A DNA stretch of 64,000 bases from Treponema primitia ZAS-2 (GTDB lineage: Bacteria > Spirochaetota > Spirochaetia > Treponematales > Breznakiellaceae): assembly GCF_000214375.1 (NCBI RefSeq), contig NC_015578.1, forward strand, positions 1,302,001 through 1,366,000. Direction: 5' to 3'. The notes beneath the pieces were generated by a model, which was not told the DNA's origin, ran no database searches, and saw nothing but the letters and a program-made list of their open reading frames with translations. Shown here piece after piece: positions 48,037-54,244 of this stretch (positions are counted from its first letter, which is position 1; the number at the start of each line of letters is the position of its first letter). A program made the translations under genes and the position numbers.

Positions 48037-49401
48037 TTGAAACAAAATGACAACAGAACAGATAGGCTTGGGACAGAACGGGTAGGGAAGCTTCTTTTAG
48101 ATTTTTCCATTCCGGCAATTATCGGAATGCTGGTTAATGCGATTTATAACATTGTGGATAGGATTTATGTGGGCCAGGGGGTTGATTCATTAGGGATCGC
48201 CGGGATAACCGTTGCCATGCCCCTGATGATGGTTATTATGGCTTCATCGATGCTAATCGGCATCGGCGCCAATTCGCTTTTTTCTATCCGCCTTGGCCAG
48301 GGGCGCAGGGATGAGGTTGAAAAGCTTATGGGGCACGCCCTGGCCCTGCTTTTTATTGTCCCGGGAATAGTCATTGTTTTCAGCCTCATCTTTCTTGACG
48401 ATATTATCGTTCATATTCTTGGGGCCAGTGAAACGGTGTTCCCCTTCGCAAAGGCCTATTTGCAGATTATCCTCTATGGTGGTATTTTTAGCGCCATGGG
48501 TCCCGGTATCAATCACTTTATCCGTTCCGACGGGCATCCGCGCACATCAATGGTGACCCAGCTTATCGGCGCGGTGATAAATATTATCCTGGATCCGATT
48601 TTTATTTTTGGTTTTGGCTGGGGTATTGCGGGTGCCGCATGGGCAACGATTATTTCACAGTTTATTTCCTTCGTATGGGTTATGGGGTATTTTAATTCCC
48701 GGCATACCCAGCTCCGTTTTCGCCTCCGCAATATGAAGCTTGAATTAAAACTGGTGTTGAACATCCTGGCGATTGGATTTGCGCCCTTTGCCATGCAGTT
48801 GGCCATGAGCCTTGTGGGGGTTTTGCAGAACCACGCCCTGAACGTCTATGGCGGGGATATCGCGGTTTCGGCCATGGGAATTGGCTTCAGCATCATGATT
48901 GTCTTTTTTATGCCCCTTATGGGGCTTAACCAGGGCGCTCAGCCCATCATTGGTTATAACTACGGCGCAAAAAAATATGACCGGGTTTTAAAAACCTACA
49001 AGTGGGCGGTAATTGCCGGCACAATTTTTATCACCCTCGGCTTTCTGATTATCCAGATAGCGCCGAAAATGTTTATTTCCCTTTTCAGTAATGAAGAAGG
49101 GCCTCTCATGGAGATGGGTATTTATTGCCTGCGCATAAGCACCCTCTTGTTCCCCATACTGGGTTTTCAAATACTAACCTCAAATTATTTTCAGGCGATT
49201 GGGAAACCGATCCAGGGGACAATTTTAAGTTTATCCCGGCAGCTGCTCTTATACATACCCTTGCTGACCCTGCTGCCCAGGTTTTTTGGCCTAAAGGGTG
49301 TCTTTTTTGCCATGCCGGCTGCTGATTTTGGTGCAGTAATCATGTCGGCTTGTTTTATGATGAAAGAGTTAAAGTGGCTTAAGGCCGGGCAAATTTCTTA
49401 A
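48037..49401 (+). CDS. MATE-family efflux transporter
   Basis: About twelve helices. TERVGKLLLDFSIPAIIGMLVNAIYNIVDRIYVGQGVDSLGIAGITVAMPLMM is the MATE opening, and QGAQPIIGYNYGAKKYDRV is the mid-protein signature. It exports drugs or organic cations with Na+ or H+. AAGGA touches ATG 48031, so TTG 48037, six bases after it, is the better start (MKQNDNRTDRLGTE). Confidence 0.94.
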   Translation: MKQNDNRTDRLGTERVGKLLLDFSIPAIIGMLVNAIYNIVDRIYVGQGVDSLGIAGITVAMPLMMVIMASSMLIGIGANSLFSIRLGQGRRDEVEKLMGHALALLFIVPGIVIVFSLIFLDDIIVHILGASETVFPFAKAYLQIILYGGIFSAMGPGINHFIRSDGHPRTSMVTQLIGAVINIILDPIFIFGFGWGIAGAAWATIISQFISFVWVMGYFNSRHTQLRFRLRNMKLELKLVLNILAIGFAPFAMQLAMSLVGVLQNHALNVYGGDIAVSAMGIGFSIMIVFFMPLMGLNQGAQPIIGYNYGAKKYDRVLKTYKWAVIAGTIFITLGFLIIQIAPKMFISLFSNEEGPLMEMGIYCLRISTLLFPILGFQILTSNYFQAIGKPIQGTILSLSRQLLLYIPLLTLLPRFFGLKGVFFAMPAADFGAVIMSACFMMKELKWLKAGQIS

Positions 49402-49507
49402 AAAGATGCGGGAACGTTTTTTCTTCATAATTTCTTCACATTTCCGGTATATACTTGAGTTATAAACCGGTGACACCTGATCAAATTCAGAAAGAGGGAC
49501 GTGGTAT

Positions 49508-49918
49508 ATGAAAGAAACGGGAGTGGTGGTAAATATCAAAGGCGCCTTAGCGACCGTTAAGGTTAAACGGCCGGCTGCTTCAAAGGGCTGCTGTCATTTT
49601 GATACCACCAAGGATGAATTCCTGGAAGCCTATAATAATTGCAATGCCGCAGTCAATGATACGGTGTCCGTCGAATCTGAAGTAGAAACGGAAAAAAGAC
49701 AGGCTTTTATCAAGTTTGGATTATTTATCGCCGCTTTTATGATCGGCCTGGTTGGGGGTTATTATGTAGCGGGACTGTTCAATGCGGCAAATCTGAACGG
49801 TTTGTTTTCCATTGCCGCAGCCCTGTTGGCCATTGTTATTACCCATATTGTCTATAAGCGGCTGAATGGTGAAGCAAAAAGGATACCGGTTATCAACGAG
49901 ATTGTATATAACACATAG
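49508..49918 (+). CDS. RseC/MucC-like membrane protein
   Basis: This 136-residue protein has an OB-like N-terminal part (ETGVVVNIKGALATVKVKRPAASKGCCHF) and two membrane helices (about 66-90 and 96-113). The pattern fits SoxR-reducing RseC proteins, which support redox complexes such as Rnf. The usual CxxCxxxxC cluster is reduced to GCC plus one later Cys. AGAGGGACG before the ATG. Confidence 0.75.
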   Translation: MKETGVVVNIKGALATVKVKRPAASKGCCHFDTTKDEFLEAYNNCNAAVNDTVSVESEVETEKRQAFIKFGLFIAAFMIGLVGGYYVAGLFNAANLNGLFSIAAALLAIVITHIVYKRLNGEAKRIPVINEIVYNT

Positions 49919-50062
49919 TACAAAGGCTGTACCTGTTGCTTTTTAGGAATCCACGCAAGTGGGTTCTTGTGCTTGAATTTGGAATTTCTGCGCCTATTAT
50001 CCGCCGCTTGATATTATATCCCCAAGGGTTGTACTATTTACATATTAATGGAGGAAAGGACG

Positions 50063-50980
50063 GTGAAAATAGTTTTGCTCCATGATGGGGATGATAAAAA
50101 GTCCGCATCAGATCTGTTGGAAGTGATAAAGGAACAGAGGATCAACGGCGAATCCCTGCCTTTTGAGGGGGATTGGGAGACTAAAGGGCCTTCATGGGAA
50201 GAAAAATTCGCTGAAGCCACCCATTTTATAGCAATTTTTTCCGAATCCTCGGATCAGAGACCCTCAGGCCCCTCCTGGTTTAGCTTTGCCGCGGGTTTTG
50301 CCCGGGGTTCCGGGCGTCCCCTGGTACTTTTTGGGGCAAATATGGATGCCCTGGGGGCTCATTTTATAAAAGACGGTATCCGGATCAGGGATGGCGGGGA
50401 ATTTTCGGCCTATCTTATCCGGGAATCAGAGGAATGGACCAGGGCTAACAGGGTCAAGCAGGCCCGGGATTCTCTGCTGGAGCAGGGTATCCCGGTCACC
50501 CTGGATTCCCTGGGCCGTTGTATAAAGGAAAAGGATTGCCAGGCGGTTTCTCTGTTCCTCCAGGCGGGCTTTGCTGCGGATACCCTGGATAAGGCCGGGG
50601 TTCCCCTGCTCTGTCTGGCTGTCCGGGCCGGTGACCGGGGCATTGTCTCCCTGCTGCTCCAGGCCGGCGCCCAAGTGAACCTTAAATCCCAGGACCGGGG
50701 CGGTTCTGCCCTGATCGACGCGGCTTTGGGAAAACACAGTGAGATATTGGGGGATCTGCTGGCCGCTGGGGCGGACACGGATACTAAGAGCAAGGACGGT
50801 CAGTCGCCACTGATCATTTCTGTGGGCCTGAACGATGAACCCACCGTAGAAATGCTGTTGAAAGCCGGTGCCAATGCCGACGAGCCTGACAGTCTGGGGG
50901 CCAGCGCCCGGAAGTATGCCACTCTCTTTAACAAGCCCGGTATGGTAGCCCTTTTTCAGAAATACGCCCCGGCCAAGTAG
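50063..50980 (+). CDS. TIR-like domain/ankyrin repeat protein
   Basis: Residues ~1-115 look like a TIR/SEFIR-type fold: VKIVLLHDGDDKKSA, PSWEEKFAEATHFIAIFSESS, SWFSFAAGFARGSGRPLVLFG. Four ankyrin repeats follow (GVPLLCLAVRAGDRGIVSLLLQAGAQVN, GGSALIDAALGKHSEILGDLLAAGADTD, GQSPLIISVGLNDEPTVEMLLKAGANAD). The GAGGAAAGGA site lies inside the longer frame from ATG 50048 and directs translation to GTG 50063. The sirtuin gene starts nine bases after the stop. NADase or signalling activity is unproven. Confidence 0.78.
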   Translation: MKIVLLHDGDDKKSASDLLEVIKEQRINGESLPFEGDWETKGPSWEEKFAEATHFIAIFSESSDQRPSGPSWFSFAAGFARGSGRPLVLFGANMDALGAHFIKDGIRIRDGGEFSAYLIRESEEWTRANRVKQARDSLLEQGIPVTLDSLGRCIKEKDCQAVSLFLQAGFAADTLDKAGVPLLCLAVRAGDRGIVSLLLQAGAQVNLKSQDRGGSALIDAALGKHSEILGDLLAAGADTDTKSKDGQSPLIISVGLNDEPTVEMLLKAGANADEPDSLGASARKYATLFNKPGMVALFQKYAPAK

Positions 50981-50989
50981 GGAGAAATC

Positions 50990-51805
50990 ATGCCTCTGGA
51001 TAGTAAAACTGATGTCGCTAAACTATACGAACTTATCTCATCGGCTAAGTACTTTGTCACCCTCACCGGCGCGGGGGTAAGTACCCTGTCGGGTATCCGG
51101 GATTTTCGGGGAAAGAACGGCCTGTACAATGATATGAATGCGGAGAAAATTTTCGATATCGATCTGTTTCGCCGGGATCCTTCCTTCTATTATAAAGCCA
51201 CTGGGGACTTTATCTACAATGTCAATGAACGGCAGCCTTCTATAGTGCATACCACCCTGGGCGCCCTGGAAAAACGGGGTTTCCTCAAGAGCCTTATTAC
51301 CCAAAACGTCGATCTTCTCCACCAGAAGGGGGGAAGCAAACGGGTGATAGAGATACACGGTTCCCCTTCGGTACACTACTGCCTTCATTGTTCCGATCTA
51401 TCCCGGGTAGAAGAACTGGCAGCCTCAGGTCCCGGTGCGGAACTGCCCGCAAACGCCGGGGATCTTTTGGGCTTTGACGCCGTCGCAGCCCTGGTCAAGG
51501 CCGGTGAATTGCCCCGGTGTAAAAAATGCGGCAAGGTGCTGAAACCGGCGATAACTTTTTTCGGGGAATCCCTGCCGGTCCGGGCACTGAAAAGCGCCGA
51601 AGATGACGCCCGGAAGGCGGATCTGATGCTGGTCCTGGGTACCACCCTAACGGTGTTTCCTGCCGCAGGCCTGCCCCAGGTAACCCTCCGCAGCGGAGGA
51701 AAGCTGGTTATTGTGAACAACATGGAAACCCCCATGGATTCTCATGCGGTTCTGAAGTTTGAGGATCTTGGGGAGGTTTTTGAGGTGCTGGCAGCTTTAC
51801 TGTAG
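50990..51805 (+). CDS. Sir2-family NAD-dependent deacylase
   Basis: Motifs in order: [16 protein letters not shown] for NAD binding, TQNVDLLH, catalytic His123 in [11 protein letters not shown], zinc cysteines C131/C134 and C177/C180, and [13 protein letters not shown]. This is a complete classical sirtuin, removing acetyl or other acyl groups from lysine with NAD+. At 271 residues it is of normal length. GGGAGAAATC before the ATG. Co-transcribed with the TIR-like/ankyrin gene. Confidence 0.94.
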
Positions 51806-51822
51806 ATTTGGAGAAATCAATA

Positions 51823-52731
51823 ATGAATAGTGTTCAGAATATCCCTGATGGTTTCTTGCGTCGGGGCATAGTTTTACTGATGGTTATTATTGCAGCAGTT
51901 CCGTCCCTTATGGCGGATCCCCTGAACACCATGAGCCTTAGCGGGGCTACTGGTCTTTATACGGTACCCACCGGGCGGGTAGCTTGGACGAATGATGCAA
52001 AGGTAGGTCTTGATTTTGGGTACCATACTATTATTGCTAAGAAGCATAACTACTTTAGCAATTCTGCTCTGCAAAACAAAGATAGTGATGGATATGAGCT
52101 GAACCACATACCTAAAATCAGCGCTAGTTTCTTTAAGTGGGTGGATGTTTTTTTAGCTTCTGATTTTCAGCCCTCCTATGGTCTTCCCGGGGATGATAAT
52201 GACAGTAACAATGATCTGATTACGGGTTTAAAGGTTCAATTACCCACCAAAGGTGCCGATATAGCCCTGGGCACAAATTTCCAGGCCCTGAATTTGAGAA
52301 ACAGCGAATTTGGTTACCAGGCCCTTCAGCTTTATGCAGCCTTTACCCATGAGGCTACCATCGTAACCCTTCCCGCTGAAACTTCGGTGACCCTGGGAAA
52401 GACCTTTGGTTTTAACAATGATTATGACGATTCCCTGCAGGATTTTAATTTTGATTTTGGCATGGGCCTTGATTTGAGCCTTTTCCCCAAGGCTATACCG
52501 GGCTTTTTTCACTGGATAATAGACTATTCGAACTTTTCCTATTCCGCCAATCCCTGGGGGGCAAATGCCTGGTTTCGGGGCACCCTGAATACAGGAATCC
52601 GCTTCAATTTTGCATCCATTGCGGCCCTGAACGATTACAAATTTGTATTTGATATTATCCTTACCGATGCCTTTGATGAATATTACCGTTCTTTTTCCTT
52701 CGGTTTGGTTTTTGGGGTTCCTTTCAAGTAG
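51823..52731 (+). CDS. Outer-membrane beta-barrel-like protein
   Basis: A signal peptide (about residues 14-32, RGIVLLMVIIAAVPSLMA) is followed by ~270 residues of alternating strands: MSLSGATGLYTVPTGRVAW, VGLDFGYHTI, KISASFFKWVDVFLASDFQPSYG. It ends in FSFGLVFGVPFK with a near-terminal Phe. It resembles treponemal families of predicted surface barrels, with no defined function. ATG 51823 is eight bases after GGAGAA; a TTG at 51808 precedes that site. Confidence 0.75.
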   Translation: MNSVQNIPDGFLRRGIVLLMVIIAAVPSLMADPLNTMSLSGATGLYTVPTGRVAWTNDAKVGLDFGYHTIIAKKHNYFSNSALQNKDSDGYELNHIPKISASFFKWVDVFLASDFQPSYGLPGDDNDSNNDLITGLKVQLPTKGADIALGTNFQALNLRNSEFGYQALQLYAAFTHEATIVTLPAETSVTLGKTFGFNNDYDDSLQDFNFDFGMGLDLSLFPKAIPGFFHWIIDYSNFSYSANPWGANAWFRGTLNTGIRFNFASIAALNDYKFVFDIILTDAFDEYYRSFSFGLVFGVPFK

Positions 52732-52741
52732 TAATGCTGTT

Positions 52742-54244
52742 TTAGCCCGATACTTCCGCAGAGAGCGCCGCCAGGGCCTTGTCTACCCGTGCTAGCGCCT
52801 GTTCAGCCCCCAGTATGCGCAGGGAACCGAAAAGGGGAGGGCTGACCCGGGCCCCGGTAACAGCAACCCTGAGAGGCATCATCAGGTCCCCCAGCTTTAC
52901 CCCCGCCTTTTCCGCCGCAGCTTTGATAAGCGCCTCCGCATCTGCATCATTCGATTTGGCCATGGGTCGCACCAGTTCACGGCCCAGTTTGAGCAGGGTT
53001 ACTGTTTGGGCAAGGTCCGATTTTTTGGGAATGAATTCTGCAGCAGCCGGAGTTGGGGGCTCTGAAAAAAGGTAGCCCAGTTTTTCCGCCGCCTCGTGGA
53101 GGAAATTTATCCGCTCCTTTATCAAAGGCATGGCGGCAATAAAAGTAAGCTTCTGTGTCCCCTCCGGCTCGACTCCGGCCTTCCCGAATAGTCCCGCTGT
53201 TATGGCGTAGGGTAGGGCAAGTGCCGCCAGTTCATCGTCGCTTTTCATCCGTATATATTGGCCGTTGAACCATTCCAGTTTTTTATAGTCGAAAATAGCC
53301 GGGGCTTTGTTCAGTTTTTCCAGGCTGAACCGGGCGGATAGTTCCTCTGGGGTGTAGATTTCCTTTCCTTCTTCGTAGGAGGCGCCCAAAAGGGCCACGT
53401 AGTTAAGCAGCGCCTCGGGCAGGTAGCCCTGGCGGCGGAATTCATCAATGCTGGTAGCCCCGTGGCGTTTGCTCAGCTTCTTGCCGTCCTGGCCCATCAC
53501 CATGGGGAGGTGGCAGAATTCCGGATGCTCCCAGCCGAAACTTTTGTACATGATCACGTGCAGGGGTGTTGAGGAAAGCCACTCCTGGGCCCGGAGCACA
53601 TGGGTAATCCCCATGAGGTGATCGTCCACGATATTGGCCAGGTGGTAGGTGGGGAAGCCATCGGTTTTGAGGAGTACCGGATCGGGGTTCACATCGTCGT
53701 TTTTCCATTCAATGTCCCCCAGCAGGTGGTCATGGAATTTGGTGGATTCCCCCAAAGGTATCTTGAGCCTGATGGTACACTTTTCACCGGCTCGCACCCG
53801 TTCCGCCGCCTCTTCACGGTCTATGTCCCGGCAGTGCCGGTCGTAGCCTGATTCGTGGGAACCGGACGCTCCCTGGGCCGCCTCCCGATCCGCGCGGACC
53901 TTATCCAGCCGTTCCTGGGAACAGAAACAGTAATAGGCCCGATCCTTTTCTATCAGTTCCAGGGCGTACTTTTTGTAAAGTTCAAATCGTTCTGACTGGA
54001 TGTAGGGGCCAAAAGGCCCGCCTATATCCGGCCCTTCGTCCCAGCGGAGATTCAGCCAGGCAAAGGTGTCGTAGAGGTTTTGGACAAAGCTCTGGTCGGA
54101 CCGGGTACGATCCGTGTCTTCCAGGCGCAGGATAAATTTGCCCCCTGCGGAACGGGCGTAAAGGTAGTTAAACAGGGCAGTCCGTATCCCCCCGATGTGC
54201 TGAAGCCCCGTGGGGGAGGGCGCGTAACGATCTCGTATACTCAT
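52742..54244 (-). CDS. gltX: Glutamyl-tRNA synthetase
   Basis: This 500-residue class I synthetase has the HIGH-like motif in APSPTGLQHIGGIRTALFNYL and the KMSKS-like GQDGKKLSKRHGATS. RLEDTDRTR is the glutamate-binding motif. There is no Shine-Dalgarno sequence. TATAGT lies six bases before the ATG, so the mRNA is probably leaderless. It is divergent from the aminopeptidase gene. Confidence 0.97.
   Translation of the reverse strand: MSIRDRYAPSPTGLQHIGGIRTALFNYLYARSAGGKFILRLEDTDRTRSDQSFVQNLYDTFAWLNLRWDEGPDIGGPFGPYIQSERFELYKKYALELIEKDRAYYCFCSQERLDKVRADREAAQGASGSHESGYDRHCRDIDREEAAERVRAGEKCTIRLKIPLGESTKFHDHLLGDIEWKNDDVNPDPVLLKTDGFPTYHLANIVDDHLMGITHVLRAQEWLSSTPLHVIMYKSFGWEHPEFCHLPMVMGQDGKKLSKRHGATSIDEFRRQGYLPEALLNYVALLGASYEEGKEIYTPEELSARFSLEKLNKAPAIFDYKKLEWFNGQYIRMKSDDELAALALPYAITAGLFGKAGVEPEGTQKLTFIAAMPLIKERINFLHEAAEKLGYLFSEPPTPAAAEFIPKKSDLAQTVTLLKLGRELVRPMAKSNDADAEALIKAAAEKAGVKLGDLMMPLRVAVTGARVSPPLFGSLRILGAEQALARVDKALAALSAEVSG

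Follow-up and report, generated by a model that had tools for sequence, protein, structure and literature searches.

Among the described systems closest to the locus analysed here is Thoeris, in which a protein of TIR fold (ThsB) and one of Sir2 fold (ThsA, a Sir2/SLOG NADase) are likewise encoded together. Also pertinent are the nucleoside deoxyribosyltransferases (NDTs; PF05014), in which the Glu of a motif of the F-E-I-G-Y-A type plays the catalytic role, and the Sir2 deacylases, which are recognized by their GAG-S, DFRG and QN-D motifs, a catalytic His and four zinc-binding Cys, yield O-acetyl-ADP-ribose as a product, and include class III desuccinylases (SIRT5/CobB) having an acyl-pocket Tyr followed three residues on by an Arg. 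For the TIR domains themselves, a passage of PMC10022894 states that the Glu located in the helix after strand 3 is needed for activity, the enzymes tested being bacterial and archaeal. Our finding that the head of a widespread spirochaete ankyrin protein is predicted to adopt a fold of the TIR/NDT type, but lacks the catalytic residue, shifts the focus of future tests to binding and partners rather than to NAD depletion, and cautions that adjoining TIR and Sir2 proteins are insufficient to call a defence system. The parts as such are known; their combination, a Glu-less predicted TIR/NDT fold fused to ankyrin repeats and spread over an entire class, did not emerge from our literature searches, which retrieved neither a description of a bacterial TIR, ankyrin and Sir2 NADase combination or of spirochaete ankyrin-TIR proteins nor, judged by titles, anything on a pair of ankyrin protein and sirtuin in Treponema.

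The window, that is, the whole stretch of 64,000 nucleotides that was analysed, comprises positions 1,302,001-1,366,000 of the genome of Treponema primitia ZAS-2, which is a single contig of 4,059,867 bp. The features of the locus are collected in Table 1. The start at position 50063 that had been assigned to the ankyrin protein in a preliminary description is probably correct, since the orthologues begin at its residue and a GGAGG precedes it at a distance of eight bases; an alternative start, the in-frame ATG 50048, would extend the protein to 310 residues. The nine bases separating the ankyrin gene from the sirtuin gene read GGAGAAATC and contain no terminator-like site in a consensus scan of positions 49400-53000. 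Counting consensus matches only, the same scan yielded 10 promoter-like sites (3.7 expected, s.d. 1.9), two of which are located just 5' of the ankyrin gene (49973-50000 and 50008-50037) and a further one where the sirtuin gene ends (51796-51824), as well as eight terminator-like sites (4.8 expected, s.d. 2.3); this pattern is compatible with an operon and proves nothing. The downstream gene F18, the start of which may sit further in at ATG 51823, encodes a hydrophobic start followed by SLSGATGLYTVPTGR and appears, by eye, outer-membrane-like. On the other side, an RseC/MucC-like protein (49508-49918; Pfam E 2.4e-11) is encoded upstream of the ankyrin gene and is itself preceded by an ORF resembling, by eye, a MATE-type transporter.

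Table 1. Features of the ankyrin-sirtuin locus, in positions of the window.
Feature	Position	Strand	Details and basis
Shine-Dalgarno-like GGAGG	50050..50054	+	eight bases before GTG 50063 (sequence)
Protein with predicted TIR/NDT-fold head and ankyrin repeats	50063..50980	+	305 aa from GTG; AlphaFold model of full protein, mean pLDDT 94.1
Head domain, residues 1-124, predicted TIR/deoxyribosyltransferase-like fold	50063..50434	+	structure model and profile comparison
GCC codon of Ala76, which aligns to the catalytic Glu of TIR domains and NDTs	50288..50290	+	profile alignments
Five ankyrin repeats, residues about 144-302	50492..50968	+	Pfam, model; Z about 24 to DARPins
Predicted Sir2 NAD-dependent protein deacylase	50990..51805	+	271 aa; His123 and Cys131/134/177/180 intact
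F18, downstream gene	51808..52731	+	307 aa ORF, two bases after sirtuin; no Pfam match

The head was modelled alone because a structure search with the whole model returned ankyrin proteins and fusions. So modelled (pLDDT 89.4), it (i) has as its best match among solved structures the TIR domain of the plant protein RRS1 (Z 13.5; r.m.s.d. 2.3, 121 aligned), (ii) matches next a 2'-deoxyribosyltransferase (Z 13.3; r.m.s.d. 2.3, 112 aligned), followed by an uncharacterised Enterococcus protein (Z 13.0) and another deoxyribosyltransferase (Z 12.5), and (iii) yields Z-scores of 11.8 with SARM1, 11.5 with TIR-STING and 11.1 with ThsB. The structural margin is modest, with only the top few matches lying about 2 Z above other α/β folds: a B12-binding domain (Z 11.1) as well as response regulators and PurE (Z ~10.6) are near, and by Foldseek E-value dehydroquinases outrank the TIR domains. 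Since these other folds score so close, structure alone is suggestive of a TIR/NDT fold, and stronger support comes from the comparison of profiles. The head profile matches that of 24 spirochaete TIR domains with P 2.3e-6 (probability 89) and that of 11 NDTs with P 5.9e-5 (probability 65), whereas 11 unrelated families reach P 0.005 at best and 40 column shuffles 0.14; when only eight TIR domains were used earlier, the signal was poor (P 0.013 global, 0.051 local), and it took 24 to make the match clear. In Pfam, the window's head alone matches no family; among 66 related heads, TIR_2 is the family matched most frequently (10 heads, weakly, best E 0.011), and the nucleoside deoxyribosyltransferase family is matched by three. 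The TIR-like head proposed in the preliminary description, for which a structure prediction had been called for, is thus borne out as a predicted TIR/flavodoxin-like fold by the model and by the profile comparison with its controls.

The profiles of TIR domains and NDTs independently give one and the same register, in which the catalytic Glu of either family aligns to Ala76 of the head. This residue is surrounded by the conserved frame W72-x-x-[FY]75-x-x-G78, which resembles the W-x-x-x-E of TIR domains and the F-E-I-G-Y-A of NDTs; the head has in common with the latter both the predicted fold and an F-x-x-G-[YF]-A frame around the position of the Glu. However, Glu or Asp occupies the Ala76 column in none of the 67 sequences of the main alignment and, after addition of 25 more distinct members, in none of 92, whereas the TIR domains of the comparison set carry Glu there in 24 out of 24 cases (read by eye). 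Since the Glu is required in the TIR enzymes tested and is missing in all 92 members, NAD cleavage of the TIR type is very unlikely; the check for the catalytic Glu proposed in the preliminary description has turned out negative. Judged from these alignments, the head is expected not to cleave NAD by the TIR mechanism, and the sirtuin alone is the predicted user of NAD. Chemistry other than of the TIR type would be compatible with the absence of the Glu and may still take place in the head.

For the remainder of the protein, Pfam reports ankyrin families only (best E 3.5e-15) and five repeats are seen in the model, in agreement with the sensor repeats described previously, so that profile and fold both identify an ankyrin repeat protein. 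Twelve positions are invariant in the 67-sequence alignment; 11 are located in the ankyrin part, and the other is Met1. Column identity averages 40% over the whole protein and 26% over the head. By these measures, the ankyrin surface is the best conserved part of the protein. (From the 70 loci of named genomes introduced below, alignment A4 omits L052, which contains a stop, L094 and L100, for which no start was found, and the truncated L085; alignment A5 additionally omits L048, the head of which is truncated. Separately, A1 omits L016.)

The preliminary description of the downstream protein as a complete, canonical Sir2 deacylase holds. Pfam identifies SIR2 (9.3e-45), along with a sub-cut-off match to TPP_enzyme_M, and the closest solved structure is 1yc5 (E 3e-59), Sir2Tm of Thermotoga maritima. 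The tested residues of the nucleotide-binding motifs, His123 and the four zinc Cys are invariant in all 19 paired sirtuins, as is expected of an NAD-dependent deacylase. When compared with Sir2Tm, Arg replaces the Pro of the GIPDFRG motif in 17 of these 19 proteins, and part of the family carries a longer insertion between the pairs of zinc cysteines. The signature of desuccinylases was not found: Tyr67 is present in 19/19, and residue 70 is Arg in 0/19 (correspondence to SIRT5 by eye). On the strength of its motifs, the protein is a predicted lysine deacetylase of the zinc type and not a ThsA-like NADase.

Among the 195 genomes of the window's family, many of which are incomplete MAGs, the ankyrin protein (E <= 1e-30) is found in 35, with one match per genome in 35/35, a sirtuin of the Sir2Tm type (E <= 1e-70) in 151, and both in 25; when only genomes with a completeness of 90% or more and a contamination of 5% or less are considered, the ankyrin protein is present in 11 of 42. 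By coordinates, 21 of the 25 genomes having both carry the two genes side by side, and in three of the remaining four (G009, G070, G171 and G182) the genes are located on different contigs. Spacing in 19 paired loci ranges from -23 to +21 bases (starts chosen mechanically), and the identity of paired proteins to those of the window extends down to 40%. When 77 family proteins are placed in a midpoint-rooted tree, the 20 paired members fall into one clade of 25 (support 0.83), which also takes in five unpaired members. The pairing is nevertheless not obligate: 126 of the 151 sirtuin-bearing genomes are devoid of the ankyrin protein, 10 of the 35 ankyrin-bearing genomes are devoid of a Sir2Tm-type sirtuin, and the sirtuin occurs no more often alongside the ankyrin protein (25/35) than in its absence (126/160). 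Conservation of the gene pair, which the preliminary description had proposed to check, is hence confirmed as to adjacency and not as to mutual dependence, and since the ankyrin protein does not raise the frequency of the sirtuin, their linkage in one clade may be neutral.

Apart from that of G030, the adjacent pairs (20 of 21) were compared side by side with their neighbourhoods. Upstream, a cyclase-like gene is encountered at L120, L031 and L043 and other families elsewhere, and the RseC-like context of the window was not seen at the other paired loci compared. Downstream, F18 comes next after the sirtuin at 13 of the 20 loci, and at least two of the other seven reach a contig edge. In G191, a genome 77% complete, the ankyrin gene is followed directly by F18 (L209/L054) and no Sir2Tm-type sirtuin was found; this genome seems to have dropped the sirtuin and retained the ankyrin gene in place. 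In Breznakiella homolactica (L037) and at L150, the ankyrin gene is located between the cyclase-like gene and murG-cvpA-holB-kinase, and the Breznakiella sirtuin lies elsewhere and is followed by an F18-like gene (by eye); in the window's genome, murG is 0.66 Mb away from the ankyrin gene. The Breznakiella arrangement and the distant murG point to a likely history in which a break 3' of the ankyrin gene joined this gene to sirtuin-F18.

The ankyrin protein extends far beyond this clade. A profile search of 392 genomes of the phylum (E <= 1e-30) detects it in 101, four having two matches, and all matches belong to the window's class except for one that hits the ankyrin part alone. Such recurrence, mostly at full length, in 35/195 genomes of the family and 101/392 of the phylum rules out a chance ORF. 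Scanning named genomes with a one-peptide pattern gave 70 loci, 69 of which are titled as spirochaetes and one merely as 'bacterium'. Within the stretches fetched, a sirtuin occurs at 13 of the 70, a gene of the murG family near the ankyrin gene at 14, and dnaE upstream of it at at least 10; dnaE (DNA polymerase III alpha) followed by the ankyrin gene was also noted at L142, L143, L152 and L153. Since neighbours differ by lineage, no single context explains the ankyrin protein. A cell-wall role, which the murG/cvpA and PBP2-RodA neighbours might bring to mind, was considered and rejected, as other lineages show dnaE, queA, a glycoside hydrolase or, at a greater distance, a UPF0164 gene.

One genome of 1,139,633 bp (G204), which we take to be that of Treponema pallidum, encodes a family member of 298 residues with no sirtuin beside it. 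This gene (L136, 4080-4976) directly follows those of PBP2 and RodA (Pfam), before which mreC/mreD-like ORFs are discernible by eye, a hint at cell-shape neighbours in this lineage. Matched by gene order, the family member is presumably TPASS_0502, and would then be an apparent orthologue of the window's ankyrin protein that differs from it by having no adjoining sirtuin. A published table (PMC5951579) gives TPASS_0502 the entry 'Ankyrin repeat protein(protein binding)', and a literature search by locus tag retrieved no functional study of TPASS_0502/TP0502.

How, then, may the pair be understood? We think it probable, without regarding it as secure, that the ankyrin protein is a non-catalytic adaptor or regulator of TIR fold, the gene of which has come, within a single clade of treponemes, to precede that of a housekeeping sirtuin. 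An old spirochaete family would thus have joined a TIR/NDT-shaped domain devoid of the catalytic Glu to a stack of ankyrin repeats; the ankyrin surface would bind a partner, and the head might dimerise or bind a ligand of nucleotide type that it leaves uncut. The sirtuin would remove acetyl groups from lysines at the expense of NAD. A rearrangement in one clade of treponemes would have set the adaptor gene directly ahead of the sirtuin gene, so that co-translation of the two is probable; the adaptor may deliver substrates to the sirtuin or adjust its activity. While the anatomy, the predicted fold, the missing Glu, the distribution, the independence of the two genes and their adjacency are results, a non-catalytic role, co-expression and any physical contact with the sirtuin are inferred from them. 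It seems rather improbable that the pseudo-TIR goes further and senses NAD, ADP-ribose or O-acetyl-ADP-ribose uncut, gating or targeting the sirtuin via the ankyrin stack. If this were true, a TIR fold would have been turned from an NAD-consuming weapon into a metabolic adaptor spread over a bacterial class. Somewhat doubtful, though to be weighed seriously, is the view that the ankyrin protein has a housekeeping task of its own and that its adjacency to the sirtuin gene arose by accident in one clade and persists through shared transcription. The class-wide presence of the protein (101/392 phylum genomes) speaks for this, as do the 70 named loci, where murG is near the gene at 14, dnaE upstream at at least 10 and the sirtuin at 13, the PBP2 and RodA genes preceding it in the genome assigned to T. 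pallidum, and the one genome in which F18 follows without a sirtuin between; it is less easily reconciled with the 21 of 25 pairs that stay adjacent despite identities falling to 40% and differing upstream neighbours. That the protein is instead an ankyrin effector directed at a host we consider very unlikely. Its best NCBIfam match is indeed a Dot/Icm ankyrin effector, but the match arises from the repeats and, at 49.4 bits, stays far below the equivalog cut-off of 600; moreover, no signal-peptide-like start is apparent by eye, and the family is class-wide with a single match in each of the 35 family genomes having it. The class-wide spread would favour a housekeeping role over the host interaction that the preliminary description had allowed, though the latter may still apply.

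An active TIR NADase acting with the sirtuin as an NAD-based module of defence or stress response, which is what the preliminary description had in mind, is hardly credible to us. The TIR-like fold and the conserved pair would suit it, and PADLOC offers candidate defence families for the ankyrin protein (PDC-M72A at 3e-19, MzaA and an ankyrin model), but each of these matches arises from residues 157-293 in the ankyrin part. The non-acidic Glu column (92/92), the canonical sirtuin and a class-wide distribution in contexts that are often housekeeping argue against it, the two genes are not mutually dependent, and an NAD-depleting pair is therefore rejected. The statement that the locus is not standard Thoeris stands: likeness to that system consists in TIR-fold and Sir2-fold proteins being encoded together, whereas the protein of predicted TIR fold here lacks the Glu, and the Sir2 protein, with its four zinc Cys and deacylase motifs, is of the zinc deacylase type rather than a Sir2/SLOG NADase and has no PADLOC match at E <= 0.1. 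Assignment either to Thoeris or to an NAD-depleting pair is thus not supported. Similarly, the head shares the predicted fold and profile similarity with TIR domains (TIR_2; RRS1, SARM1, ThsB, TIR-STING) and differs from them in its Glu column and in having no TIR_2 match of its own, and the whole of the window's genome encodes no TIR_2 protein at E <= 0.001. A genome of 3,855,671 bp (G139), presumably that of T. azotonutricium, contains five TIR_2 matches (L124, L130, L132, L134 and L135), distributed over three ORFs such that two of these have two matches each.
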